A stretch of 64,000 bases of DNA from Liolophura sinensis (lineage: Eukaryota; Mollusca; Polyplacophora; Chitonida; Chitonidae): the NCBI RefSeq assembly GCF_032854445.1, contig NC_088300.1, positions 41,568,458-41,632,457 on the forward strand, given 5' to 3'. Shown piece after piece: positions 1,735 to 64,000 of the stretch. A program made the translations under genes and the position numbers. The notes under the pieces were generated by a model. It did no database searches and had not been told where the DNA came from. It saw only the letters and a program-made list of their open reading frames with translations. The number at the start of each line of letters is the position of its first letter. Position 1 is the first letter of the stretch.

Positions 1735-3575
1735 GTCCACTATACAACCACCCCCATTATCACACCTACAATACACCAACCGCATTATCACTCCCAGAAT
1801 ACACCAACCGCATTATCACATACACAATACAGCCACCCCATTTTTCACATTCACAGTATAGCCACCACATTATTAGATCTACCCCATTACGATGTCCACA
1901 ATACAACCTATCTATTATCTCTTCAGCAGTATTGCCAACCCTGTATCTCATCCACAATAGATCCATTTTAGTATCAAATCCACAATACATCCTCTCTGAT
2001 ATCTCATGCACATCCCTGGCACAGTCACCCCAATATCACATCCACAATAAAGCCACACCAATATCACATCCACAATACAGTCACACCAATATCACATCCC
2101 CAGCAGAGCCATCCCAATATCACATACACAATACAGTCACCCCAATATCACATCCATAATACAGTCACTCCAATATCACATCCATAGCACAATCACCCCA
2201 ATATCACATCCACAATACAGCCACCTCAATATCATATCCATAGCACAGCCACCCCAATATTGCATCCAAAATACAGCCACACGGATATCATGTCCACAAT
2301 ACAGCAATCCCAATATCACATCCACAATACAGACATCTCAATACCACATTCATAGCACAACCATCCCAATATCACCTCTGCAATACAGCCACACCAATAT
2401 CACATCCCTAGCAAAGCCATCCCAATATCACATACATAATACAACCACCCCAATATCATTCACAATACAGTCACACCAATATCACATCCCCAGCACAGCC
2501 ATCCCAATATCACATACACAATAGTCACCCCAAATATCACATCCATAATAGTCACTCCAATACCACATCCATAGCACAATCACCCCAATATCACAGACCA
2601 CAATACAGCCACCTCAATATCATATCCATAGCACAGCCACCCCAATATCGCATCCAAAATACAGCCACACGAATATCACATCCACAATACAGCAATCCCA
2701 ATATCACATCCACAATACAGCCATCTCAGTACCACATTCATAGCACAACCATCCCAATATCACCTCTGCAATACAGCCACACCAATATCACATCCCTAGC
2801 ACAGCCATCCCAATATCACATACATAATACAGCCACCCCAATATCACATCCACAATACAACCACCTCAGTACCACATTCAAAGCACAACCACCCCAATAT
2901 CACATCAGCAATACAGCCAAACTAATATCACTTCCCTAGCACAGCCATCCCACTATCACATACACAGTACAACCACACCAATATCACATCCACAATACAG
3001 CCACCCCAATATCACATCCACAATACAGCCACCTCAATACCACATCCACAATACAACCACTCCAATATCATATCCACAATACAGCAACCCCAAAATCACA
3101 TACACAATACAGCCACCTCAATATCACATCCTTAGCACAGCCAACCAAATATCATATCCACAATACAACCACTACAATATTACATCCACAATACAGCCAC
3201 CTCAGTGTCACATTCACAATACAACTTCTCCAGTATCACAACCACAATACAGCAACCCCAATGTCACATCCACAATACAGGCACCTCAATATCATACCAA
3301 TAGCATAGCCACCCAGATACCATATCCTCAATACAACTACTCCAATATTTCACAATACAGCCACCTCAATATCACATCCTTAGCACAGCCAACCAAATAT
3401 CACATCCACAATACAACCACTCCAATATTACATCTACAATACAGCCACCTCAGTATCACATTCACAATACAACTTCTCCAGTATCACATACACAATATAG
3501 CAACCCCAATGTCACATCCATAATACAGCCACAGCAATATGACATCCATAGCAAACCACCCCAATATGACACAAT
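1735..3575. repeat. 28-bp minisatellite array, about 65 diverged copies
   Basis: The unit is close to 'ccaatatcacatccacaata' followed by 'cagccacc', repeated head to tail for about 1.8 kb. Copies differ by substitutions and small indels. Longer blocks also recur (for example around 2170-2400 and 2560-2790), so segments of several units have been duplicated together. It lies just upstream of the exon at 4493. Confidence 0.93.
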
Positions 3576-5842: not shown

Positions 5843-6095
5843 GATAATTATTTATTTGATTGGTGTTTTAACCTGCACTCAAGAATATTTTACTTATACG
5901 AAGGCACCAGCCAGCATTTTGGCGGGAGGAAACCAGACAGAGCCTGGGGGAAACCCACCACCATTGCAGGTTTGCTGGCAAACCTTCCCGCGTACGGCTG
6001 GAGAGGAAGCCAGCATGAGCTGCACTTAAACTCGCAGTGACTACACTGGTGAAAGGCTCCTGGGTTGAGCCTACCAGCTTGGCCTCAGAGGCCCC
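5843..6095 (-). mobile_element. SINE, common tRNA-derived family, near full length
   Basis: The tail motif 'gattggtgttttaacctgca' is at the left and the tRNA-like head ('cctcagaggcccc', antisense) is at the right, so the element is on the minus strand. The tRNA-like head is degraded. It is the same family as the copies at 12573, 26745, 46764 and 57332. Confidence 0.88.
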
Positions 6096-11200: not shown

Positions 11201-14200
11201 TTTTTCTGTGATAACTGTGTCCTATATAATTTTTTTCTATGCATATACAGTGGCAGACTTTTTGTTCACCTAATCTTTACAGTATTTGTTTCAGGAATGA
11301 ACTATACAAGACATAAAATTCTTCAACAGATCTAATAATCTAATTATCTAATCTAATAATCTACTTATATTTTTAATTGGTGTGCTCATGAATTGTTCAC
11401 TGATATAACATGAATTGTTCACTGATATATCATGAATTGTTCACTGATATAACATGAATTGTTCACTGATATAACAGCGGTCTGGTTTATGAATAGCCTG
11501 TTTAGAAAAATTCTTCACCAGCGTACCTTTCATCAGAAGCAGCCTTTTTCACCTGATTCATGGCGTCATCACTAAACACTACCTGAAAATGAGAAATGTA
11601 AGCTTGATAGACACACAAGATTTCACTACACCTACAGAATATGCCCAGTATCACCAAAATTTACCAACATAATGCATTCATTTTACATCATCATACACAC
11701 TACGGAAACTACAAGTTATCCAGGGTGACATGTTCAGTATTAATCTTACCATGCCATGTCCGTTTGCCTCGAAATACAACCAACATCATACTCTAAAGCT
11801 TTGCAGTGCAAATGTTTGACTCCTGTAGGAACACAGGCAACAGGAATTTTAATCTTACCGTGCCATGTCCGTTTGCCTCGAAATACACCCCAACATCGTA
11901 CTCTAAAGCTTTGTGGTGTAAATGTTTGACTCCTGTAGGAACACAGGCAACAGGAATTTTCTGAAACATCAACACAGATACTTGTCTTTGGAATGATTTT
12001 AAAGCTAGAACACATGGGGAATTTTTATCTTATTGACATTTATGCTATTTCATTATTTATTTATAGTTAACGGGTTTTGTTTTACATTCCACAGTGAGGA
12101 ATATTCCACTATGTAAGAGCGGTCAGATGTATGAGTGCAGGAAAACCACCACCCTTTGGCAGGTACCTTATTAACCTCCTTACATGACGAATCTATATTA
12201 AGATATTAAGTCAGACTTTCAACAGTCTGCTTTACAAGGCTCAAAACATGACCACATGCCCTGGTCATGTGGAAATTAGAAAGTGGTCCTATTTCACTTA
12301 TTTTAAAAAGTCAGGGATACGTTTATCCTATAAACCATGCTTGAAACCTTGTTAACAGCTTCATCCAAGAATCAAGGAAGGTTTGTGACATGAAATCTTT
12401 CTCTGCTGACAATTCTTTATGTGGATGAACTATCACAAGCCAGATTTGTGATTTTTCAGACACAGGCCCCAATGTGACTGCAGCTTCAAATCAAACTCCA
12501 GCTAGTCTTCAAATTGGGAGGTTTGTCAAGTACACAGCAAGATGCGGTGTTTGTTTCTAATAAATGTCACAATTTATTTATTTATTTATTTGATTGGTGT
12601 TTTACACCGTACTCAAGCATATTTCACTTATACGACGGCGGCCAGCATTATGGCGGCAGGAAACCAGGCAGAGCCCCGGGGGAAACCCACGACCCATCCG
12701 CAGGTTGCAGACCTTCCCATGTACGGCCGGAGAGGAAGCCAGCATGAGCTCGACTTAAACTCACAGCGACCGCATTGGTGAGAGACTCCTGGGTCATTAC
12801 GCTGAGCTAGCGCGCTAACCAACTGAGCCACGGAGGCCCCTTAAATGTTACAAGGATAAAGACGTAAATCCATGACAACAAAACAATGCAGGTCTAATGA
12901 GCTTACCAGCTGTTGTCTGATGTACTTGGTTGAGCTGCCATTAGCGTAGGCAGTTTGAACCAGGCCCAGTTTCAGCTTGAGGCCACTCTGTGTTACCAGG
13001 TTTGTCAAATACCCAGCCACCTGAGGGGAAAGAACAAGATTATTTGGTTTACATATATACATGTATATATGACAGAATATGCCTAGGTATTTAAGGCAGT
13101 ACCAACCTTACATCTACACATGAAGCAATTTAAATCACAGCATATTTATTCCAATAAAAAGGAGTTTTACCATGACTGAATCCTAAATTATCACCAGTGT
13201 AAATATTTAAATAAAACTTACCAATGTTGCTATTTTATCACCATCAAGGAGATGAAATTTTCCATCTGTATAGAAAAAAGTTGCAAACAATGAATAATAA
13301 TTAAGAACGTTTAATACAGTTAATAACAACTCTGAAAAGAAATATGTATTGGAAGAAAAAATGTGAAGTCACCTTGAAGTACTATTCATGTATTTTTAAG
13401 ACGTGTTTATTGCTTTTTTGTGACACTTATGAATATTCTGGTTTCATGCAGAAGTTGTGGCTCATTCAAATAAACGTTCATCATTTCATAATCAGACACT
13501 CCAGCCTGCACATGTAGCCTTTATTCAAACTAAGCCACAGAAAAACATTTAAATTACTTGTTTGTACTGAAAAATTACGCAAATATAATATATTTAAGTT
13601 AAATGAAGTCAAGAGAAGATGCTTATGATCAGTTACCTTTGTCAAAGAAGTAGAAGACAATTCTATCAGCATCTCCATCAAAAGACACCAGTTTTACCCC
13701 AGCATCTGCGTTACAGCCTGTTACAGAGAAAACATGGCCTGTGTTAGCATGCCTAATCACTCTCACATCAATCACATGCCTTTGATGGTCAGTGGATACA
13801 TGTATGTAACTAGGCAAAGATGGATAAAGTCCCGATTTATTAAACATTTATTAAGAAATAAGACAAAATTATGACCAAATATGGTATTTCTTACCAATTG
13901 GCCCCTTCTGTTGAACTTTAACATAGTCTGCTCCACACTGATTAGAAAAAAAGAAGTATGGGAAACACATTAATTGAATCGTCATAGTTCAGTAGCAATA
14001 AGAAGTAACTGATCTTCTATCTTGCTTTCCTTGGCAAAATATTGTACAAGAAGTTTTCTTACATATATTAAATTAGAATAATTATGTCCTCTTCACCTGC
14101 TAGTGAGTTGAAAACTGATTTTAAAAAGCCAGCCTCAATGCTGAAATATCTATAGTGCCGCCTCAATGAAATGCAATGCTGAGGACACCAGAAATGACAC

Positions 14201-24870: not shown

Positions 24871-27800
24871 TATTTGATCAAGGGTTTAACACTGTTCTCG
24901 CGGAAATCTTTCTTTATTCAAGGTTCGTAAACACGTTACTATACAGCATCAGAGCTTGTTTTGCTTAGACAATCAAGTATATACCAGGCCTAGCTAATTG
25001 GCCTGCAGAGAATCCAGGTCTCGATGATTTGGCCCAGGTATTAGGTCAGGAGGTTTGACAGGTCAAACCCGCTGCCCTACACTATGATATATAAGTGGAG
25101 ATTTGGATACTGTAGAACAAAGCATTGATTATACCCGGCCGGAGAGGAAGCCAACATGAGCTGGACTTGAACTCCCAGCGACCGCATGATGGTATTTGAG
25201 GTGACAAAAGCACTAGGATCGCCTGTCGTAATTAGTTATTTGCCTGTAAAGATTTGGCCATTTAAGACACAGAATACCTGTACTTACCTGTGTTGTCTAG
25301 ATGTCCTGCTTCCAGACAAGTTTCATCCACCATCAGGTGTGTGTCGGCACTCAGCTGTAGCATGCCACTCTTCACACGGTTAGCAGAGTAATCCTTCTCC
25401 GGGGAGAACTTGGCCTGGTTCATGACGGACAGGGTCATAGGTAACTGATGAGACTGAAAAACAACATGAACAAGTGTTCACTTCCATGGATGAGTATTAC
25501 AATACATCATTCATTTTATTCATTTCATTTGTGTTTAAAGGGATACAGAATCAAAGCTGACTGGTTGACAGTGGACTCTGGGTTTCCTGGGTTCAACAAT
25601 GCAGCCTTGGTTCACTTTAACGCGCCATGCTTAAAATTCAGCACTGCGTGGTGGTGGTGTGTGTTACCCACACACGAAAATCAAATCTATTTATATGATA
25701 TATATAAGGAAAATGGCTATCTAGTTACCATGACAACTGCAAAAATGGACAAATGTGAGTTGTGACACATCGTTATCTGTGTATCTACCAAAAATTAAAA
25801 CTGTAGAAAACTGTTGGAGTTATAACACATCGTCATCTGTGTATGTATCCACCAAAAATAGCTAAAACAATACGCTCCGCCTAATGGCGGATGCGTATGA
25901 AAAAGGGGCTAAGGTACCCCAGAGGGAAACTAAGGACATGTTTGGTGTGTTAGTTTGGGTAATTAAGAGGAAAATTTTGCATGTTCTACACCAAGATAAT
26001 GAGCTAATTAAGGGTATAGCATGTTTAGCTGGTGTATAATCTTTGATGAGTTCTGTATATTTACTGTGACGGTTTGCTTATTGCAGACTTGAACAAATGT
26101 CACATATATGTATACCGATGCCCTAAAATATTCGTGACAGGAGCAATCTTGAATTCATCGCGTTCGACAGCTGTTCTAGACCTGCAGGGATCATGAGATG
26201 ATGCAGATTTTCAAGTTGTCATGCTGTAATTTTAATAAAGGGGTGCTTGTTCACGAATTTCTCACTGTAAGTGGTCTTGGGATTCCACATCCGCTTTCTT
26301 CGTTCACACCACCACCAGGCATTTCATGGCCAGCCACTTTGCCATGCAAAAGCATGCTGACAATGGTTGACACAGAAAGACAGAATAAACAGGTCACCAT
26401 TTGGAAACCCTTTGCGTGCGACACTTAAGCTATATTAACTCTCAACTTGGGGGTTTCCTACTAAATCCTCGCTGTAATGTGAATGCTAAAATAGTGGATA
26501 GGTATTTTCTACATGTTTGGCATACAAAATATGTCAAAATTGTACAAGTAGGCAGGTCTGGGCTATGTATGGGCAGGACTTAAACAAAAACTGAGGTGAT
26601 CCAATATGATATAAAAGACTGAAATGTTCATTGTAAAGCAATACAGAAGTAAAGATGATGTAAGAAACAATCATTTATGTGTATGAAATTATAAACATTT
26701 ACATGGTACAAGATCATCTTTGTGATCACCTGAGCTCAATTTGATTTGATTTATTTATTTGATTGGTGTTTTACACCGTACTCAAGAGTATTTCACTTAT
26801 ACGACAGCGGCCAGCATTATGGTGGGAGGAAACCGGGCACAGCCCCGGGGAATCCCACGACCATCCGCAGGTTGCTGGCAGACCTTCCCTCGTACGGCCG
26901 GAGAGGAAGCCAGCATGAGCTGGTCTTGAACTCACAGCGACTGCATTGGTGAGAGACTCCATTGCGCTGCGCTAGCACGCTAACCGACTGAGTCACGGAG
27001 GCCCTGAGCTCAATTTGAGGTCATGTTTATTTTGAGAATGAATGTCTGAATATTTTGACCCCTTGATCTAACCACAATTTGACATCTGTGACTCAGTTTC
27101 AAGTTTTCTCCTATCTTCCCACGTTTATTTGGTCAGAAAAGGGTGTCTTACAGACACTGAAACGCCCCCTGGCTAAACCTATAACAACCAATTTAGAGCG
27201 TGAATCAACACCCCTTGTATCCCAATAAGGATCAACAGACAAATATCAACCAACTATCCACAACCTGCTGTTTTCCAATGATTTGCTTACAGAATATAAC
27301 GCAGCATCTAGGTGTTCTTCTATTGACTAGGGTCTTCTTAGGGAAATGGAGACTACTTCTCATGTGTCTTACTCCGGTGCCCATACAGCTTTTGCTTTGA
27401 ACCCTTCCCTTCTACACTTTAAATCACATCGAAATCCTCACCACTGACCTTAGTGACTAGATTAGACAGTAGGTGATAAAACAGCTTTGGGTAAGCTCTC
27501 TGTTCCTTAGGAACTCCTGATAAATTGATGCTAAATTTACCAAGAGGCATCACATCTGCTCTGGCATACCTACAAAAGTAACAAATTGGTCTTCTTTATT
27601 ACTCTGATTTCTCAAACTTTTCACACATGAAAGAACAACTTAGAGTACAATTTATGCACGTTTTTAATTTGATTTTAATGACAGAACTATACTGCTTGAA
27701 TAAACCCCTTGTAAATATGCAGAAAGTTTGAAGAATTACAGTTATCATTGTACAACATAATTACACATGAACAGTATCTTGTGCAACCGGTTAACATCTC

Positions 27801-38600: not shown

Positions 38601-41600
38601 GACATTTATTTGCCTCCAAAATGCTCATTTGTGGTCATATTTTTAGGTCATTTTGGGTAAGTGCTGTGATGTAGGTTGTCCTGTTTTTGCCAGTTGTCTG
38701 TTTTTTTGTTTTTTTTTCCCATGTTGAAACAGTCAAGTTTTACAAAAATAAGTGTTGTAGTGGGTTGATAGTCATATTAGATTCTGTCTGCAATTCCCAT
38801 TTAGTACATCTCTGGGCAGGTGGAACTAACTTTTTGGTTTAAATGTAGTTCAGTATGAGCCAAAAACTTTGGAGTTAAGATTACTGTACAATGTACATGT
38901 ATGTGCTTAAAATTCCATCACATTTTCTCGTTTTTGAAAGGTTGGAAGGTTATTCGTGGTCAGTGTAAAAGATGTGAGAGCTTGGGATGTCAGGAGAAAG
39001 TATATTTTGCCTATTAAATTAGCTGTTTTCAAGGTTGGTCACTTGATATTTGTAAATGGTAATATTTTGTTTAAAAATAATAAATTCCAGTTTTTGTTTA
39101 AATTATTATGTTCTGGAGGAGTGATTTCTGGAGTTTTCATTTCTTAGTAAAGAAGCTCTGGCTGACCTTTACGTTGCATCTCTTTTTAGAACAAGACAAT
39201 ATTGTGGCCACTGACGGAGGTCGTTATGATGTAAACTTAGCCACGCGTCAGAGGATGGCTATATACTGGGAGGAACTGCCAACAGCTGTGATGCGATGTT
39301 CCTGGTTCTACAAGAGAGAGGGAGACAGCAAATATGTGCCCTACTCAGAAGAGTTTGCAGGAAGACTTGAGGTGAATTTCTGGTGACAAATCCAAAATAG
39401 GCAAACTGTACATCTGTGCCTTGGAGCCTCTGTGGAAGAGGTGGTTAGCACTGCATCACTGCGCAATGGCCCAGAAGCCTCTTACCAATGCTGTCGCTAT
39501 GAGTTCAAGTCAAGCTCATGCTGGCTCCCTCTCTAGCCGTATGTTGTAAGGACTGACAGCAACCTGCCAGTGGTCATGGGTTTCCCCCAGGCTCCTTTTC
39601 CTCCCACCATAATGCAGGCCGCCAACGTGTCAGTGAAATATTCTTGAGTATGTTGTAGATCTATGCCTGGAACAACAACACACCAGAGAAACTTACATGC
39701 AGTTGCGTTGGCATACACAAGTTATTTATCCATAATTTGGAAATGTTTTGAGGTGGTCACTTGCTGGCTTAGAGGTGGTATGGCTCTGGCATCAGGGGTT
39801 CACAGAAGTTCATGTTTATGAACCGAACCACAGAATTGTTTTCTTTTTGAGGAGCTAAATGGGCTTAAAATTACAGTCAAATTAGTGAAAACGCTGACAA
39901 ATATATGCATTGCACTTAGAATTGGCTTTCACTGAAAGTATTGACAAGAACTGATGAAGAACATCTCCCCAGTTACTTCACGATTTATTTAAATATGCAT
40001 TGTTTAAACTTTGAAGGTAAGTGAATGACTTCCTTGGAAATTAATTGCTCCAACGAAAATCGGCTCACTCAGTTGTCGAGCATTAACTTAATCTCTTGTA
40101 TCCCTGATTGCTTATGAGTTGGTCAAATGCACTGGAGAATAATTACTTTACTTTTGTTTCTTCTTGACCCAAATGAATCAAAGTGTATGCTGAAAATTGT
40201 CAGTTTGGCCAAAGTGAAATGGAAATTGGGCCAATGAGAATAAAAATGGTGTTGGCTATGTGTGCTAAACAAAGCTACCTGTGAGACTTCTCGATTGTAC
40301 ATTTCACAAATTGATCATACTAAAACTTCTCTCAACAGCAGTTGAGTCCATTTCTACAAATGTTGTTGATAATGTTCAGCTAGAATATTGAGTTAGGTTA
40401 ATATCGCCAGAAAGTTATGTTGTGAAAGATGCCTCAAGAGAAAGGTATATTATGAAAGATGCTTCAAAATGAGGTGGATACATAACCAGTGTTTTGCAAC
40501 ATCACAACATGTAAACAATGACAGCTGTGATTCAAGGGCTGCCTTCCAAAACAAATTCAATTTTTGACCTTGTAAAGATTTAGTTTTTGACACCCAGATT
40601 GAGCATAGTTATTTTGGTCGACATTGAATTTATTTCTGCCACTAAATTCAGTTGTAAAGTTTAAAAACTCAGTTTTACAATGGAATACCAGTTTATAAAA
40701 TCAACATGTTGTTATATGTCAGTGTAATGATACTGTATTGTAATGATACTCTATTTGGTCAGTGTAATGATTTTGTTGTTGTGGTATGATCTATCCAGGA
40801 GGAGTATAAAAACGCTCTCATGAACAATGTATGGCATAAGAGGCTGGAGTTCCCTGATGGAGAGACAATAGTGATGCACAACCCCAATGTGATAGTACAC
40901 TTCCAGCCATCCTCCCAACCTGATGAGTGGGGCAATGTTCAGGTAAATGTGAGTGTTTTTTTTGCACTGAATGCTACTGCCTCTAAGCTTGGAATTTCAT
41001 ATGCGATCACATGCTGAACGGTCACATGCTGAACTAATAAATTTGATGCAGTTTCATGCAAAAACAATTGTGTAGTAGTTTTGATTATTCATTTTGGTTC
41101 ATGGGATCACATGAATAATTATGTTGTTGGGTTATATGGGTTACTTGCCATAATAACAACTATCCATCATACAACCTAAAGGTTTTCCATTTTCGGCATT
41201 TATCAGGGTGGATTATTGTTTATTTGCTTAATATGCAAGGGCCTGTGCACTTTATATCTGTACAACATATGTTGCCATAGTAGTTAAAGGCTTACTTAGC
41301 TAAGTTAGCTTCATGAAATCGGCCCCTGCTCTGTAGTAGATGCTTTTGATCATGTTTTTTCGTCTTAATCTATAAATCAACATAACTATGTTGACTATAT
41401 AGCTGTATAATACATAAGACTTGTATCACCTATGAAGAGTGCCTATTGCAATCAGAAAGTGAGGTGTTAAAAGTGTTCATGGTCTTAAGTTTAAGTGGTG
41501 AAATTAAAATGTCGCAATTCCAAACTTATGCGCTCCATTTTATTTACCTTACATAATGTTTGCGTAATGTGCTAGACGAGTAAGGTAAGAATATTTCCAT

Positions 41601-44600
41601 GTGGTCTTCAATCTCTGCTGTAATAAATTCTGCTGTGTCAAAGCAGGAATATCCAGTTTCATGTTCATGTGTGCAGTGCTTACTGAAACTGGTTCTGTAC
41701 ATTTGGAATGTGTATATTAAAGGGGAAATCACTCCTGCTGAAAAGTTTGGCCAGCTTGCATGATACATGTACAGGGATGAGAATTTTCAGCTGATCAGCT
41801 AATTTTATGGGATATGAGGATTTCAAAAGTATCAAAATTTTGACCAAATTGGACCAAAGTATTCATTTGACTAATGGGGGTCAGCTACATGTAATAAAAG
41901 AAATTTCAGCTGATATTCATGGTACAGATTCTCTTCCCCGAGATGTACATGTACATCTATTCCCCATTGCTGTCAGCTTTTACATATTTACTCTCCCAAA
42001 TTATTCCGCCCAACGTCTTATCTTTGCTCTGTTTATTTCCACTCAGAGTGTGTACACTTTGCCGGTGAGTCAAGTCTGGGCTACACTGTAGTGCTGGTGT
42101 TGTGCAATGGCTGAGATCAGTATCAGTTATGTTATTTCAGTTTCTAAAGCTTGGTGTAATCTTCCGTTCTTTTCATTGTCAGGTCACAAATTTGTTCTGT
42201 GTTCTTTTTGCCTCTTCACGGAAAATGGGACTGTGCATCGTTTTAATTTGTTGATATGGATAAACTATTAGGTGCATTGTATGAAAGAAATATCTGTGAA
42301 CAATGCACCTAAATGCACACTCATTTTCTGACATTAGATAATTTTGAATTTGGAAAGAATTGACCATTACTGGTATATGATCTCTGTTGGAGTGCTGATC
42401 TAAATATGACCAGTACCTTTGGTGTTGGCCAATGCTTCAAATGCTTTTGCATGTAGCTTTGGTAAAACAAATAAGTTGAATAAGTTTACAAATTATTAAA
42501 TATAAATCATGACTACATGCGGCTGGTTGTTAAAATGTTGTGTATTTTAGTACTTTTGCTTGTTTATTATAGAATATGTTTAGATTGTTAACAGTCTAGA
42601 TAAATTTGATAAAACATTAAAGAAACAGTTTGACCATCAAATGTTAATTAAGAAATAACAAGTTTCTTAATTTTGAAACAGTATTGTCAAAGTGGCATTA
42701 AACCATAATCATTCATTCATTCTTAATTTTGAAGGTATTTTATAACTGTTTTACCATGAGCTTTCCTGCAAGCTTAGTGAAGCCAATCTTATGCAACTGT
42801 GCCTGCTTGTATCGTTACCTAAAGATGCCCTACTTTGGCTTGCTTGACATTTTATTTTAGACTGATATTTAATTCACAATACAAAAAAAAACCCTTTTGC
42901 ATGCTGTAAAGATAAGTAGAAAATATTAATGATTTTTTTTTTTTTGTGTTAAATTTTCATATTTCTTTTCCAGCCTGATATTATTGTTTTTGTTACTTTG
43001 TTCATTAAAGTGAAGTGCCATTAAGCAATAAAATGCTTGTTATTACACTATTATTGGTATTCATAATGTTTGTGTAGTATGTTGATTTCCATCAACAGAT
43101 GACAGTTGCACAACACTGAGCAGCATGCACCATACACATGCACTTGCGGATTAGATGCTTTTTAACTCTAGAGGCATGCAGCGCATTGCCGACAAAACAT
43201 TTACCTGATTATATTGGTACACAGGGCCATCACCTAACCCGTACTCACTGTGTGCTGGTTGTACATGTGACGCCTAGCCTGAACTCTGTTCTCCTTACTT
43301 CTAGGGCGACCAGATGAGGCCACGAGTTGTGAAGAGAGGGGTGGATGATTTTGCTACAATACAGGATGGTAGGCTTTTTAGGACTCCCCGTATGTGGTGC
43401 AATCATTCATTGCGCCAGAACCATATACAAGCATAAAATATTGATAGATTCAGCAAGTGGTTCATTTAACTCGATATTGGCAAGAAAATAATTATACCGT
43501 CTTTAGGCAGTAGCTGTGAACCAGCAGAGAAATTTAATATTTCAAAACTGGACGACATTATAAGAGGAAAGACAACTGTACGTGTGTGTGGGTAAAGTAT
43601 CCCCAGTAATGTTTAGAAAGCATACCTTCTGATTTTTTTGATGTTATACAGCCAGTGTATTAGGAAGCAAAAAAACATTCATCAAGAAAATTTAAGCTGC
43701 AGCCATGTTGTCTGTTTTAACCAATCAGGCACAAGTTTTTTCTTTAAGCTGAGACTGCACCTGTTTCCTCTTTGGTGTCATGCAAACTTAATTTTGCCTT
43801 TCTGCCACATAGACTGACTAGCACAGAGTTTGAGTGACTTGTTTTTCTGGTTTCTCTAATATTGTGTATTCCAATACCTTGTAAGAATTCCACATTAGAA
43901 GTAGATTTATGGAGTTCCATGTACCAAGCTATTTATGTTTCCACCCATCATCCAAAATACCCTATTTCTTCTAAAATTTGGGACACCTGGTCTTCTTATT
44001 TTAGCCAATATATATGTAATTCTAGCAGGAATATTGAGTTCCTTTTTTCTTGCATGGTTAGACCAATTAATGAACAACATAACCATATCTTTACTTTTCC
44101 AAAAAGGCTGGTAAAGAAATGTAACACCAGTAATATTCGTCCCAAATTTTGTTAGAATTAGGGTAACTAAAGTTTTAATTTCTGCTGTCTTTTCTTTTAA
44201 TTAGAATTTACCAAATAAACATTTACCAAATCCCTGAAGCTGTAACTAATTATACTTGTGTCTGTTTACCTGATACAGGTGAACCTCCCACGATTGATCA
44301 TCTGGTGTTTGTGGTACATGGTATAGGCCCTGGCTGTGATATGAGGTTCAGGAGTATTGTTGAATGTGGTAGGTACATGTATGTTTAGTGCTTTACCTGA
44401 TACAGGTGAGCCATCCACGATTGATCACCAGGTGTTCATGATACATGATGTAGGCCCTGGCTGTGATATGAGGTTCAGGAGTATTGTTGAATGTGGTAGG
44501 TACATGTATGTTTAGTGCTTTACCTGATATAGGTGAGCCTCCCACGATTGATCACCGGGTGTTTATGATACATGATATATGCGCTTGGCTGTGATATGAG

Positions 44601-47600
44601 GTTCAGGAGTATTGTTGAATGTGGTAGGTACATGTATGTTTAGTGCTTTACCTGATATAGATGAGCCTCCCATGATTGATCACCGGGTGTTTATGATACA
44701 TGATATATGCGCTTGGCTGTGATATGAGGTTCAGGAGTATTGTTGAATGTGGTAGGTACATGTATGTTTAGTGCTTTACCTGATATAGGTGAGCCCCCAC
44801 AATTGATCACCGGGTGTTCATGATACATGATGTATGCCCTGGCTGTGATATGAGGTTGAGGAGTATTGTTGAATGTGGTAGATACATGTATGTTTAGTGC
44901 TTTACCTGATACAGGTGAGCCACCACGATTGATCACCAGGTGTTCATGATACATGATGTATGCCCTGGCTGTGATATGAGGTTGAGGAGTATTGTTGAAT
45001 GTGGTAGATACATGTATGTTTAGTGCTTTACCTGATACAGGTGAGCCATCCACGATTGATCACCAGGTGTTTGTGGTACATGATGTAGGCCTTGGCTGTG
45101 ATATGAGGTTGAGGAGTATTGTTGAATGTGGTAGATACATGTATGTTTAGTGCTTTACCTGATACAGGTGAGCCATCCACGATTGATCACCAGGTGTTCA
45201 TGATACATGATGTATGCCCTGGCTGTGATATGAGGTTGAGGAGTATTGTTGAATGTGGTAGATACATGTATGTTTAGTGCTTTACCTGATACAGGTGAGC
45301 CATCCACGATTGATCACCAGGTGTTTGTGGTACATGATGTAGGCCTTGGCTGTGACATGAGGTTCAGGAGTATTGTTGAATGTGGTAGATACATGTATGT
45401 TTAGTGCTTTACCTGATACAGGTGAGCCTCCCACAATTGATCACCAGGTGTTTGTGGTACATGTTGTAGGCCTTGGCTGTGATATGAGGTTCAGGAGTAT
45501 TGTTAAATGTGTTATTACTGGTACGTGGATTCAGGTACTTGTACATGGATCCTGCAGCTGTCAGTAACATGACAGTAGAACAGAGAAAAGCTGTTATGTA
45601 AGATTTCGCAAATTGAGCTGTAGAAGTAAAAAGCAAAGCTGTAGCTCTTGCTTATTGTTGTGTGTTTATTAAATTTGTGGACCTGTAGGGAACTGAATGC
45701 CGATGGTTCGCTTTAAATTCTCAGCACATGCAGTTTATGATTATCTTACTACTGTTATTACATGTATATTTTTCTCCCAGAATAAGAGTTCATATGTATC
45801 TGTTTCAATCTTAGGTTTATGATACAATCTGTTTAAGATCGCTCAGATCAAGACAGTTTCAAAATTAACTAAGGTCACACCACAACAAACTAGAAGAGAT
45901 TTGCTACATTTTGTTTTTGTTTTCACTTTATCTGTAGATAATTTAGCATTTGTTTGATATAAACTTGGTCAGTTGGAGCACAACCACGACTGTTATTTTC
46001 AGGTTTCCTCTGACCGCATGTATTGCATTGTTTCAGTTGATGACTTCAGAGCACTCTCTCTAACACTGCTCACCACACACTTTGCTCAGTACATGAGTGA
46101 AGGTAGGATTGGCCGGGTGGAGTTCCTACCTGTTCATTGGCACAAAGCTCTACATGGTGATGCCACAGGAGTTGACCAGTACGTCTCTACTCTCATCAAT
46201 ATATCAGGAATGTACACAGCTGTGCAGGAAAATAATTAAATACTGGAGATTGATTTACAAATATAAGGCAGTATTCAGTGCAGTATGATGGGATAAAGGA
46301 ATAGAAAGAGCCCTTAATTTTATTGTATATCCGCATAGCTGAATTTAAGTGAATAATGAAAGAATGTTTTGAAGGTTTGTGAAGATGGGTTTCAGTGCCC
46401 TAAATTGAGACCTTAAAACACCTATAATATTGTGTCCGAATACTCCGGTTTAACTTATATTTTGTCTTTAAGTGAAGATTTTGCTGTAAAAAAAGCACAT
46501 CTGTAAGTCATGTTTTTGAATGTATTTTTCTCTACAGAAGGCTGAAAGCTATAACCCTTCCAAGTACGGGTAAATTGAGGCACTTTGTGAATGACACCTT
46601 ACTCGACATACTCTTCTACACCAGCCCCACATACTGCCAGGTAGGTAATGTCAATCAAACTGTCATAAAACTGGAGGTTTCAGTGCTGCAAAATTGGCAA
46701 GTTTCTTTTTGCTTCACACCATTCCATCAAGATCACTAGATGATTTTTTCTTCTTTATTCAAGGGACCTACGTGGCTCAGTTGGTTAGCGCGCTTACCAA
46801 TGCGGTCGCTGTGAGTTCAAGTCCAGCTCATGCTGGCTTAATCTCCGGTCGTACGTGGGAAGGTCTGTCAGCAACCTGTGGATGGTTGTGGGTTTCCACC
46901 GGGTCCTGCCCTGTTTCCTCCCACCATAATGCTGGCCGCCGTCGTATAAGTGAAATATTCTTAGTACGGCGTAAAACACCAATCAAATAAATAAATAAAT
47001 AAATCTTTATTCAAGACAAGCTCCAGCTGGATGCACCAGTTGTGTTCATCAAATTTCTATCAGGATCTGATTGTTTCTCACAAGCCAATTATATTACTTG
47101 TAATATGTACCATTACCTTTCAGTTTTAGCGGAAAACTTCAGATTGGTATGCTTTAATAACTTTTTAAAAAACTTTACAGGGTAGGGGAGGTGACAGAAT
47201 GAATGGAGCACATTTTAGTTCTATGATGTAATTAGATTATTTATAAGAGGCACTCATTCTAATTGTTTGATGTGTGCATGTTGTGTTTTCAGACAATTTC
47301 TGATACTGTTGGCAAGGAGATGAACCGTCTATTGCTACTTTTTCGAGAGAGGAATCCAACCTTCAAGGGGACTGTGTCAGTGTCTGGCCACAGCCTGGGT
47401 ATGTATATTGCTTACTCTGTGATGACACACATTGTGAGTATTGTCTGCAAAGAAAGAGTGGATGTAGAGAAGATACAAATTGTGAAACAAAATTCAATGT
47501 CTTTGATCTAAAACATTTCCCAAGTATAAAATATTTACTAAATTGTTTGTCTCAAAATAACTTTTTTTGACTTGATTGCAACACCAGTTAATCATATAAA

Positions 47601-50600
47601 AACCATTTTCATGTTGAAAATTAGGTACTCGTCAGCCTATTAATCGCTGAAAAATGCTGTTTGTTGTGATATACAGGAGTACAAAGTGGGGAACTATTAA
47701 ATTTTTTTTTTCTCTTCTGACATGTAGAAAAGGTTTATTTCATGGCCATTTACTGAAATTTGTAAGTGTGTCTATGCTTAGGCCTGATTGGTTGGCTACT
47801 CTTAAATGAATTTGGTTGATTCGCCATCGAGAATCCTGTACTTTGTTGAGGATTGAGGGAAATCGTACCATAAATGCTTGTTTAAAGTGCCACTTCTAAA
47901 GAATCTAAGTTGAATAATAGTAGTTAACACCTACAAGTGAAAAGTCCTCGAAAAAAAACATGTTCAGCAGTTTCTCTAACGTTTTCTGGATATGAAGACC
48001 AATCAGGCTTACATGACATGGAGTAAGGCGGTTATGCTGGAAGGATGTGTGAGCATGTGAAAGTATCCATCATTCGTGGTTGTACAGCAGCAGTGGGTGT
48101 AGCCAAGTATTGCATTAAGTCACACCAAGCAAATTTGGAAATGACAAAAAACTTATGTTATTGTACTGTCCATCGAAACTGAAGACAGCGGTTTTAATTT
48201 TTTCAGAATTTAGGATAGCCATTCAGACTATCTCAGTTTTTATCGTTTATCGTTATCGTTGTTTGTTGCAGGTTCTTGTATTCTGTTTGACCTGCTTCAG
48301 CATCAGAAGGATGAGAAAGCTACACTGTTACCAGAACCCATTCCTCCCCCTCAGGATGTGCCGAAAACAGATTCTACTACAGAGGTCAGTGTTCACAATT
48401 ATTTATACCAGGATTCAGCATCTTCTGGTGCATCCAGTTTACCTCATCTCATGTTCTTAAGGTCTTTCTCTGGCTATTTCTTGAGCACAAAGGGATTTAA
48501 TGGCTTTAGTTATCAATTTAAAAAGCATAAACTTGATTGAATAACATTGTGAAATAAATGATATTATCAATGCGTACACTTTAACACTTCACATTTAGCC
48601 TTAACACATGCTGTATGGATTGGTACACCCTGTATCCTTGCTCTGTTATCAAGTTTATTGTTGATAAATTCACTGTTTCTTTGTTGGGTGAAAAAAATGT
48701 AATCTTTGTTTAAGGGGAAGTATAGAACACCATGTTTTGTGCCTTGCTGGATGTTTTGCCCACTTTCATACATTGTGGTATAAGCTTAGAAAAAGTTAGT
48801 CCTTGATTTATACGTACTATATTTGTGTTGATATTCACAGGTGGCAGCTCAGAGTTTTGATGAGCCTTTAGAACCTGAGATGACATTAGAGGAGCTGTTA
48901 GAGAAAGTGGGATTACAGGATAAATTTCAACTATTCCAGGATGAACAAATTGACATGGAATCATTGGTAAATTCAAATTTTAAAACATTGCTCACATCTT
49001 ACATTAGAAAAGTTACTCTCTTTCTTCTATACATGGACTTTACAGCGAACAATTTGTGCACGCCAATCAAGTAAGTCAATAAATAAATGATATTAAAAAA
49101 TAATATATACTGATTGCTGAGTGAAGACGTTTTCATGTTTCTTAACTATTATAGTACTAAATTTCTCACTCCCCTTTCCTGATGAATTTTTCTCACCTTC
49201 AATTTATATCAAAAGCATTTTATAGGAAAGTTTTAAACAAGATGAAATTGAGTGTGTGTTCTTTTGTTCTGTAGGTCATGTGTAGTGACTCAGATCTGAA
49301 AGACTTGGGCTTACCTATGGGCCCCAGGAAAAAACTCACTGGTATTCTGAGAGAAGAACAACAGAAAAAGGTAGGTGAAGTAAGGTTGGGATAAGATTTC
49401 TGTGCTTTGTGCTGATCAGTAAATTAGTTAAAATTTGGCTGTTCAGCGTCCAAACAGATTCATACAGGGTAGGTGTATTTATTTGGCTGAAAGACTGCAA
49501 GAGATATAGATAGTTAGTCTTCGGTAACACGGTACATCACATATTTCTGTTGGAAATATATACATGGGTGTGTATTTGGATGCTGTTAAGCTGTGTCTAA
49601 CCTCAAAGCTCAAACCCTGGTCATATTACTGCTTATTAAGTATGGGTAGTTGTGATTCTTTTTTTGCATAAGATTTGCTAGAGATTATGACATTCTAACT
49701 GTAAGTTATGTTTGAAACAACCTTTTAGAAGCTACTTATGAACTGAGCCTACCATTGCCTGATTATTGTTCACAGGCATGGCGGAAGGAAGTGGCAGAGA
49801 GGAAGCTGGCTGAGGAGAAAAGGAGACAGGAGGAGGAGGAGGCCAGAAGGAAAGCGCAAGAGGAGGCTTTTGCTCAGCAACAGTCTTCTGAGGATCAGTT
49901 ACTAGAGAGGTGAGCACAATGGTACAGAAGTGGTAATCAGATCCTTGAGAATTAGACAAAATGGTACAGAAGTTGTAATCTGACAATTTTCATTCTACTA
50001 GTGATCAAGTATTTGAGAGATAGTACAGTAGTACAGAAGTGAAGCAAATCGACCATTTCTGCGGAAGTGCAAAAATTTGAATTCTAAAACAGTGAACAGT
50101 AACTGCTGCTAATGAAATTAAGCCAGGTGTTCTCCACCAACAATCAAAACAGCATATTCTTTGGCAAAATGTCATTTTCTGAAAATGGGTCTGACTTATT
50201 TATTTCCAGTCCTGAGACCTTTCTATCGTTACGTGTAGTATGTGCATGAAAAAAATAAATAAATGAAATCATGAAATTTTTTGTCTATATTTTTCAGCAC
50301 ATCACGAACATCAAGTGTCTCAGTGGAGTATCTCTATGGCACCGCGGGCACTGGCCAGCCATTTGTGTTATATCCTAAACTGTCTTTCTCACCAGCAGCA
50401 TTCTTTGCCTTGGGATCTCCCATTGGAGTGTTTCTAGCTATACGAGGCATAGCTGAAATTGGAGAGGAATTTAGACTGCCAACTTGCCCAAGATTGTTAA
50501 ATATATTTCATCCTGTAAGTGAGAGATTTATATGTTTTCTGTGATTTCTTGGTTAAAATAAATTCAGACAAATGTTGTGAGTTTCTTTGTAATTTTTCAT

Positions 50601-57331: not shown

Positions 57332-57597
57332 TCTGTGGCTCATTTTGTTAGTGTGCTAGCCCAGCGTAATAACCCAGGAGTCTCTCACCAATGTGGTCGC
57401 TGTGAGTACAAGTCTAGCTCATGCTGGATTCCTCTCTGGCCGTACATAGGAAGGTCTGGCAGCAACCTGCGAATGGTCGTGGGTTTTCCCCCTGGCTCTA
57501 CCCGGTTTCCTCCCACCATCATGCTGGTCGCCGTCATATAAGTGAAATATTCTTGAGTACGGCGTAAAACACTAATCAAATAAATAAATAAATATTG
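57332..57597 (+). mobile_element. SINE, common family, full length
   Basis: The head reads 'gtctgtggctcattttgtta', then an extra segment found in long copies ('aataacccaggagtctctca'), box B region 'gtgagtacaagtctag', body, and a (aaat)n tail. No clear target-site duplication. Intergenic. Confidence 0.93.
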
Positions 57598-60897: not shown

Positions 60898-61701
60898 GAT
60901 GATAAAATATAATAGGGCTAAAACTACTTATATATACGTCACCTATATAGATTATGTATAATATACTTATAACATATGTAGATCAATACCATGCAGTTGT
61001 CATTAGAAGAAATACAGATATTTAGGCCTATTGTTTCACAATGGGTGGCTTCAACGTACGGTATAGTGTATAATTTTTCATTAAATTTAAATTCGGGTGA
61101 AAATGAACTGAGATAATTTAATTTATATTTATGGTAAGATTTCTTTGCTTGAATAACTATTGTTCGCCTACGTGCCTACGTTTACGTGTAGAGATACCGG
61201 ATGCCGCCTACATACAAGTAATCCACACCCAAACACTTAACTTATTACCGGCATAGGTCCAGGCCTATCCAAACTTTCAACTTTGATAATCTTACATAGG
61301 CCTAGGCCTATCCAAACTTTCAACTTTGATAATCTTAATTTTTTTTTTTTTTTGTCGTGTGTTTTTTCTTTCATTTCAGAGAAAAATGGCAGAGTAATCC
61401 TGTCTGACATATTTTCACTTGGAGGTTTGAAGTACTTAATTCACACAGCGGGTGTTAAAATGGTGAACTGTCAAACTTTTTGGGTGGGGAGGGGGTGAGT
61501 GTTTGCTTGTCGTCTCGCGGTTACCAGGTGCTTGCCTACATCATATCCCAGCATGCCTAGCGACAAGTTCATGCCCAACTCTTTGTTGTTCGAGTTGGCT
61601 GCTCAGTAATCAGAATGAATTTGTAGTGCAGGGAAGGGCTGCTTTGTTCAACGGCCTCTTTAATTATTTTTTTCTACTAGTTTGGACTCATTAGAACGAC
61701 C

Positions 61702-62114
61702 ATGGCCAGTGCGGGAGGCTCGGGAAAAAGTGAATTTCATGTGGGGGGAAAGTACAGGCTGGTGCGAAAGATAGGCAGCGGGTCTTTCGGAGACATTTAT
61801 CTTGGTGTAAACATCGCCAATGGGGAGGTCAGTATGGAGGATTCCTGTACACTCGGGGCCTCTCACCCACAGAAAATCGAAATGATTCACTGCCTTCCAC
61901 AATTCTACCTCTCAACTCACTGTGTGTTTTGTCGAAAGTCTCAACGAGTGCTGTTGTTGTTGTTGTTGCCCTTCACAAGCTATTTATGATATGCGTTATT
62001 TTAACAGGAAGTCGCTGTGAAATTAGAGTCCCAAAAAGCCAGACACCCTCAGCTGGAGTACGAGAGCAAGTTGTACAAAATATTACAAGGAGGTGTTGGT
62101 ATTCCACATACACG
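61702..62114 (+). CDS. CSNK1A1: Casein kinase I alpha, first two coding exons (3' part outside window)
   Basis: CK1 alpha is a Ser/Thr kinase that primes beta-catenin in the Wnt destruction complex and acts in Hedgehog and circadian signalling. Exon 1 is 61702-61827 ([20 protein letters not shown], then [22 protein letters not shown]; donor gtcagt). Exon 2 is 62008-62114 ([20 protein letters not shown], then [16 protein letters not shown]; donor gtaagt, ending two bases into a codon). The Gly-rich loop GSGSFG (25-30) and the ATP-binding Lys (47, in VAVKLE) are present. The sequence is almost identical to vertebrate CK1 alpha, and KYKILQGG-type wording separates it from delta/epsilon. The start has a strong Kozak context (gaccATGG). 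The remaining exons, including HRD and the activation loop, lie beyond 64000. Confidence 0.96.
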
Positions 62115-64000
62115 GTAAGTGTTGGGATTAAGGATGTCGGTTTATTCACACGCAAAGTTAATGGTACTGCATTTTCAGTTTTATCAATATATATGTACAA
62201 CTGCTATAGACTGTAAATGGAGGTGTGACATTAGAGTAATAGAAACAGCAAACAACATGGATTTTCTGTCATCTCTGTCAGCTGTCAACCCAAAGCCAAT
62301 GCCTGTAATTAGTATTAATTAGGTCTGTAAAATAATTGATATGTATTATTTACAGAGCTTTTCAGGTGGCACATGCTACAGATATATGCCTGTATATGTA
62401 TCATCAGCCATAGTTCACTTGAAGTTGTTTTACTTAGTGAATGCCACATGGGCTTCACAGTTTAATATTCACAATAAATCAAAGACATCTGTCAAAAAAG
62501 AAAAAAAGGCCAAAAAAAAAAAAGTGAAGTCATTCATCAGAACTGTGATTTATATTGACAATGAGGAGATTGAACCTATAGGTCATATATAGTGTTCCAT
62601 TAAGTAGGTCTGTCAATTACATAGGCCATCGGTTCTCGTTGTGAGTCCATAAGTGCACTAGTAAGGTGACTAGACCTTCCCATACCTAAAAGCATTTAAC
62701 TATTAATTGGAGTGTACAATACATACATGTATCTAAAATATAGCCATATATTATACCACATTCACAAGGACAATAAGAAACAAAACATTGCTGCCAAACT
62801 CTTGACTTTACACTTTAACTATTAAGCACAGGAACATTGCTGACTTGAATTAAGTCATCATTGCCTGTGGCTAAAGAGTAAAAGTACAGAGTCAACTCAC
62901 AGAAAAATGCACAGTCTAGTTGGCCTTGTATGGGTAATTTTCTGAAAAAACTTATGGAAATAAATTTGAGTAAATATTGTAACATTTGGTATACTGTTTG
63001 AAATGAAATAAAGCAGAGGGTTATTGTTACACATTAACTTTGTTCTGTGCAAGTATGACTGAAATCTGAAATGTCCAAAGAAAAAAAAGAGAGAGAGAGA
63101 GAAATGTGTAAGCTTAAGATTTGATTGCTAAAAGAAAACTGTAACCATAGATACATGTTCTGTTATTGTGTACACTGCACTGAAGAAATAGCAAGGTCAT
63201 CAGTCAAAAGATTTGATTTTCATTCTGAGAGACATAATCGATGGAAGAGGCACATATAGGTAGAAGTATATATATATTAGCAGAAGAAGGATGTGGCATA
63301 TTGTATGTGTTGTTAGTCAGTTGAGTGGCAGGCTTGCGCATGCAGTCTTAAAGCTGTTGCACCAATGTATGACTACGAAGCATGACTGTCAGTGACATGC
63401 ACTAATCTGTAGTCGGGAACTTCTGACACAGTTGCTTAAAGGAAAAGGGAGTGTTGTGTTGGCCATGAATCAATAGGCTTGCATTGCTGACTGTACATGC
63501 AGTGGTGAAAATGTAATCTCACTGCAGGACTGACATGTGCACTGCAGCAGATGAGGCTCTACATATACAGTGTTACATGTTGTTATATCTCCTTTTAAAC
63601 CTCAACCATACTGAGATGCGTTTATAAGTTACTAGACAAAAATTATCTCCATTATGACAGCATGATAACTAAAAGATAGCTTATGGGAAACATTCATGAT
63701 TGAATGCATATACATGTATATATACATGATCTACAGTGAAACATCTGATTTGTTGTCAGATGTACACCTCATTTTGTATGAAATGAAAAAAGAAAATTTT
63801 TTTTTTGTAACTTTTGGTTGATACTGTAGTTGACCTAAAATTTTGTCCATGACTGAGACTAAGGTACACATTTTGTCTATGTTCTAGCAATCTTAGCAAA
63901 GTAGTTTGATGGGGCTATGAAATGAAGGATGATAATGTAAGTTTCAGCAGCAGGATTAATATTTTTTGATCTTTATTTGCCCCTAAATGGCACTTTTTAG
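62115..64000. other. CSNK1A1 intron 2, incomplete
   Basis: No further CK1 exon (the next should begin with the residues after HTR, W-Y-G-type) is seen before the window ends. The stretch is AT-rich with a short GA run near 63090-63101 and ATGTATATACATG-type palindromic motifs near 63713-63728. A Lys-rich open frame at 62341-62592 is taken as intronic noise. Confidence 0.7.

Follow-up and report, generated by a model that had tools for sequence, protein, structure and literature searches.

A tenfold repeated exon in a SEC23IP-like gene of the chiton Liolophura sinensis is most probably a minisatellite that captured an exon

In the 64,000-nt stretch of Liolophura sinensis analysed here (the window; contig NC_088300.1, positions 41,568,458 to 41,632,457), a gene that we take to be SEC23IP from its sequence and domain order contains a tandem array in which one of its exons is present ten times. 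Judged from the sequence, the array is very probably a minisatellite that captured an exon, with unit 1 as the working exon and units 2-10 as unselected pseudoexons. An original prediction on this DNA had favoured a splice-competent array of mutually exclusive exons and had offered the minisatellite as the alternative; it is the alternative that fits best.

Tandem Repeats Finder (TRF) places the array at 44265-45511, with a period of 127, 9.8 copies and 94% matches, and together with the alignment it confirms the predicted ten head-to-tail, exon-bearing units. The period of the predicted uniform 127-bp units starting at 44279 was recovered, but the units measure 126-128 bp, the last one being truncated, and the repeat already starts at 44265. 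A unit is made up of TTTACCTGATACAG or a near copy, a 90-nt phase-1 exon copy and 23 nt starting with the donor; this last stretch is missing after unit 10. The exon copies, whose start positions are given below, are 90 nt long in units 1, 2 and 7-10, 91 nt in units 3 and 4 and 89 nt in units 5 and 6, and each of the nine spacers between them measures 37 nt. All ten units carry an AG acceptor and nine a GTAG donor (GTAGGT in units 1-4, GTAGAT in units 5-9). Unit 10 lacks GT where the other units have it; an in-phase GTACGT at 45521, which the original prediction does not mention, would yield a 99-nt exon. The extra units 2, 7, 8, 9 and 10 are open, none of them with a stop, and units 3-6 are frameshifted. 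The frameshifts in these four of the nine extra units arise from two one-base indels, an insertion that units 3 and 4 have in common and a deletion aligned at one place in units 5 and 6. An acceptor in every unit, a donor-like GT in nine, a phase-symmetric 90-nt exon, and five open and four frameshifted extra copies had all been predicted and were found. In the 609-Mb genome, a DNA search matched a single place, the window, and a protein search whose query joined unit 1 to the next exon gave nine places, all inside the SEC23IP-like gene. The features are as follows, all on the forward (+) strand.

43305-43368, +: exon preceding the array, donor at 43369, placed by frame, phase and GT-AG chaining
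44265-45511, +: tandem array, 9.8 x 127 bp, from TRF and alignment
44279-44368, +: unit 1, conserved exon of 30 codons, branch-point-like AACTAAT 29 nt upstream
44406-44495, +: unit 2, open, IHDVG, donor same as in unit 1
44533-44623, +: unit 3, +1 frameshift
44661-44751, +: unit 4, +1 frameshift, insertion common with unit 3 in the alignment
44789-44877, +: unit 5, -1 frameshift
44915-45003, +: unit 6, -1 frameshift, deletion aligned where unit 5 has one
45041-45130, +: unit 7, open, VHDVG, donor GTAGAT
45168-45257, +: unit 8, open, IHDVC, donor GTAGAT
45295-45384, +: unit 9, open, VHDVG, donor GTAGAT
45422-45520, +: unit 10, open, VHVVG, without the usual donor, would be a 99-nt exon with GTACGT at 45521 as donor
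46037-46178, +: exon following the array, placed by frame, phase and GT-AG chaining

The exons of the host gene, chained by frame, phase and GT-AG, span about 35.6-55 kb of the window. The chain comprises 20 exon cores and 19 gaps, the last of which gave no intron; of the 18 introns chained, 17 were used for splice scoring and the doubtful intron 3 was excluded. The DDHD domain is matched by Pfam in three pieces, near 50.4, 51.1 and 52.7 kb, with the second piece below the family cut-off, GHSLG is present and the exon chain is in order; SAM and WWE domains are presumably present as well, as read by eye. Unit 1 joins VDDFRALSL of the next exon in phase and is the only unit to keep HGIG. The glycine codon after the histidine is altered in all nine extra units, and in the open ones HDV or HVV stands in place of the HGIG of unit 1, which bears out the expected replacement of VVHGIG by IHDV, VHDV or VHVV. 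Part of the oxyanion hole of alpha/beta hydrolases is described as usually following strand beta 3 (PMC11878206), and we infer that the HG of the DDHD family sits at that position. A second place in the genome with HGIG (L012) reads INHLVFVIHGIG; a further DDHD match follows 9.5 kb downstream of it on that contig, and both probably belong to one paralogous gene. At a further DDHD locus (L013, contig C10), no HGIG was found within the 9.9 kb examined there, and a search of solved structures with the unit 1 segment gave no match at E up to 1.

The differences among the exon copies fit neutral change. The 18 substituted exon columns are spread over codon positions 1, 2 and 3 as 6, 5 and 7. A hand count from the alignment columns of units 2-10, with each site counted once and the original frame applied to the frameshifted units, gave 12 nonsynonymous and 4-5 synonymous changes, which fits a neutral nonsynonymous share of 0.73-0.80 at an assumed kappa of 1-8 (P 0.36-1.0). 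Variable columns are no rarer in the exon part (18 of 90) than in the spacer (2 of 37, P 0.058). Intact frames in half of the extra copies had been put forward as an argument for function; since about 92% of copies would keep an open frame through 10 random substitutions (at an assumed kappa of 4), the five open frames carry little weight. As a separate observation, the differences between units are concentrated in the first 52 bases of the exon (44279-44330 in unit 1), at 15 of 52 versus 5 of 75 positions (Fisher P 0.001; scan P 0.021), perhaps as a result of patchy conversion.

The relationships between the units are those of a mosaic. Only 1-3 substitutions separate four of the 45 unit pairs (6/8, 3/4, 7/9 and 2/8), the first three of them differing by 1-2, and 4-13 separate the other 41. 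When two-allele sites are paired, 17 of the 45 combinations show four-gamete conflicts, equal to 11 of 28 distinct patterns; this count leaves out the one three-allele site and becomes 26 of 55 when it is included. The conflicts point to exchange between units or to repeated mutation; a mosaic of this kind is what slippage, unequal exchange and conversion would give, and repeated mutation may also have contributed. The array combines head-to-tail units of high identity with signs of exchange and of recent block duplication, as a minisatellite does. Its period, copy number, mosaic relations and near-identical pairs are those of intragenic minisatellites in general; unlike these, the chiton unit includes an entire exon along with its acceptor and donor.

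Similar arrays are abundant in this genome. Eleven stretches of 10 kb taken at round coordinates (110 kb) contain six arrays that repeat a unit of 50 bp or longer three times or more, one of them with 12.8 copies of 85 bp, after overlapping rows had been merged and two rows with fewer than 3 copies excluded. Scaled up, this would amount to tens of thousands of such arrays genome-wide, and therefore some should include an exon. We infer that a tandem duplication copied the 90-nt exon along with its flanks, 14 nt of the upstream intron and 23 nt on the downstream side, and that slippage, unequal exchange and conversion would then have raised the copy number to about ten units. Unit 1, beside the non-repeated upstream intron, would be spliced to 46037 over the rest of the array as one 1668-nt intron, leaving units 2-10 as decaying, unused exon copies. 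As the closest units differ by about 1-2%, near the heterozygosity of 1.22-1.26% reported for Liolophura japonica (PMC11068029), the copy number may vary between animals.

Whether the extra units could be spliced was evaluated from their signals. The non-repeated upstream intron is found only at unit 1, the repeat taking in just 14 nt of it. There, the best AG-free branch-point-like site, AACTAAT at -29, has a score of 7.1; the 90th percentile of the controls, which were 662 intronic AG, is lower, at 6.7. For units 2-10 the best such site is TGTTTAG at -18 with a score of 4.7, equal to the controls' 75th percentile; the weights for branch points and for first-pass splice sites were hand-made from consensus sequences. 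Among the mapped acceptors, that at 48214 is without any AG-free site and may be misplaced. The absence of a branch point from units 2-10 was considered as a decisive argument and rejected, because the scores of the mapped sites extend below 4.7.

The 17 introns of the gene measure 308-2362 nt, so that the 37-nt spacer is far below their range; human introns as short as 43 nt are reported to be spliced (PMC4463651). On account of this spacer the original prediction had expected mutually exclusive selection by default. This expectation fails, because a short gap would bar neighbours only, and units 1 and 3 are 164 nt apart. For human mutually exclusive clusters, potential steric interference is reported in 9% (PMC5740500). 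Pairing between docking sequences was evaluated by duplex energy in 60-nt windows, a limited test in which dinucleotide shuffles were made for the post-array stretch only. With the spacer of unit 1 against 45512-46036, 2 of 60 mononucleotide shuffles were as good, as were 57 of 400 dinucleotide shuffles of the spacer and 55 of 400 of the target; against the upstream intron, 43369-44264, 17 of 60 mononucleotide shuffles were as good, giving no signal.

Several observations weigh against the extra units being inert, and with them against the minisatellite explanation. The score of 4.7 at their branch-point-like site, though below 14 of the 17 mapped acceptors, is above the other three. The donors of units 2-9 score 8.5-9.3, compared with 4.4-11.6 for the 17 mapped donors, on a scale that is partly circular as it was derived from the gene's own 17 donors, including that of unit 1. 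The splice-site scores would hence leave use of the extra units possible. The ratio of nonsynonymous to synonymous rates (dN/dS) is 0.32-0.55 between unit 1 and the open units, over 3-4 synonymous changes, and 0.26-1.06, once undefined, among the open extra units; all five in-frame extra units are free of stops. Tandem exon duplications are also described as frequently leading to mutually exclusive splicing (PMC6071210), and for the oyster alternative oxidase AOX a duplicated exon is reported to be alternatively spliced, with both transcripts identified (PMC5589949). The dN/dS comparison between open units had been suggested as a check; the values against unit 1 show the pattern expected if constraint acts on unit 1 alone. 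The numbers are small and may leave room for weak selection on the extra units.

It is nevertheless very unlikely that the array is a cluster of mutually exclusive or alternative exons, in which unit 1 is exchanged for some of the open units, 2 or 10 being the best candidates, and the resulting isoforms lack the HGIG glycine. Much of the predicted splice-competent array stands: the exon, its phase symmetry and the anatomy of the copies are as described, five extra units are open, every unit has an AG acceptor, the GT donors of units 2-9 score within the mapped range, and the in-phase GT of unit 10 at 45521 reaches 8.6. What does not agree with such a cluster is the codon-position and nonsynonymous-to-synonymous pattern, which fits neutrality, the frameshift in four of nine extra units, so that the frame is not kept throughout, and the loss of the conserved glycine from every extra unit. 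In addition, the spacers are near-identical (2 of 37 columns vary), the limited docking test gave no signal after or before the array, and the short gap would keep only neighbours apart. We regard as similarly unlikely a form of this explanation in which units 2 and 10, perhaps also 7-9, are alternative exons picked by site competition, in an array with 37-nt spacers young enough to vary in number from one individual to another. Somewhat less likely still, extra units might sometimes be spliced in as cassette or poison exons, as in unit 1 followed by unit 3 across a 164-nt intron, leading to non-productive transcripts. The donors of units 2-9, scoring like mapped ones, would allow this and units 3-6 would shift the frame, but units 2-10 are without the upstream intron of unit 1 and its branch-point-like site. 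An assembly artefact in the copy number is very improbable. Tandem arrays are prone to mis-assembly and the four closest unit pairs would be compatible with it; the 41 more divergent pairs speak against it, and the assembly is reported to be built from HiFi reads with a mean length of 8,347 bp at 14x (PMC11068029), longer than the 1.25-kb array.

The capture of an exon by a minisatellite, with the extra copies unused, also has parallels in known systems. According to PMC9741552, exons are often duplicated in tandem, but the copies are not commonly spliced in a mutually exclusive way. At the wMT-2 locus, a metallothionein gene of the earthworm, duplicated copies of exon 4 are reported to be absent from the final transcript (PMC12783039). 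That gene resembles the chiton array in having extra copies of one exon within the gene and is a precedent for their silence; it differs in having two duplications, one of them reversed, and no ten-unit array. Mutually exclusive clusters such as that of arthropod Dscam likewise consist of tandem homologous exons in one gene (PMC6071210, PMC5740500). As described there, known clusters are often chosen by docking and selector pairing, whereas the chiton array showed no such signal in the limited docking test, and its extra units gave no indication of being under selection. The oyster AOX gene shares with it a duplicated exon in a mollusc, the difference being the two identified oyster transcripts (PMC5589949). 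A literature search of titles and abstract openings, most subscription journals lying outside it, found nothing naming this array. RNA sequencing data from five tissues, namely digestive gland, foot, gill, gonad and heart, are reported to be public for Liolophura japonica (PMC11068029).

The array is a clean natural case of an exon multiplied ten times together with its splice sites. From it one can learn how the spliceosome deals with near-identical decoy exons, whether by passing over them or by using them, and the array may resemble a stage that precedes any mutually exclusive cluster. For annotation it is a warning, as gene predictors may call false exons within it. If extra units were used, SEC23IP forms would result whose hydrolase site lacks the HG glycine.

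Elsewhere in the window, a 28-bp minisatellite with about 56 copies occupies 2021-3571, in a stretch of strong GC skew. A dispersed repeat of about 210 bp at 46793-46999 has five further copies, 81-89% identical to it and on either strand, at 5845-6050, 12577-12782, 26746-26953, 39481-39650 and 57384-57592; it has matches in 12 of 13 other stretches compared and looks like a short interspersed nuclear element (SINE). Reading frames of a neighbouring gene at 61681-62115 resemble casein kinase I. Outside the window, the genome has TTAGGG telomere repeats, in agreement with Liolophura japonica (PMC11068029). Contig C99 matches COX1 seven times, once only in part, at a spacing of about 15.5 kb; it is probably a concatemeric assembly of the mitochondrial genome.

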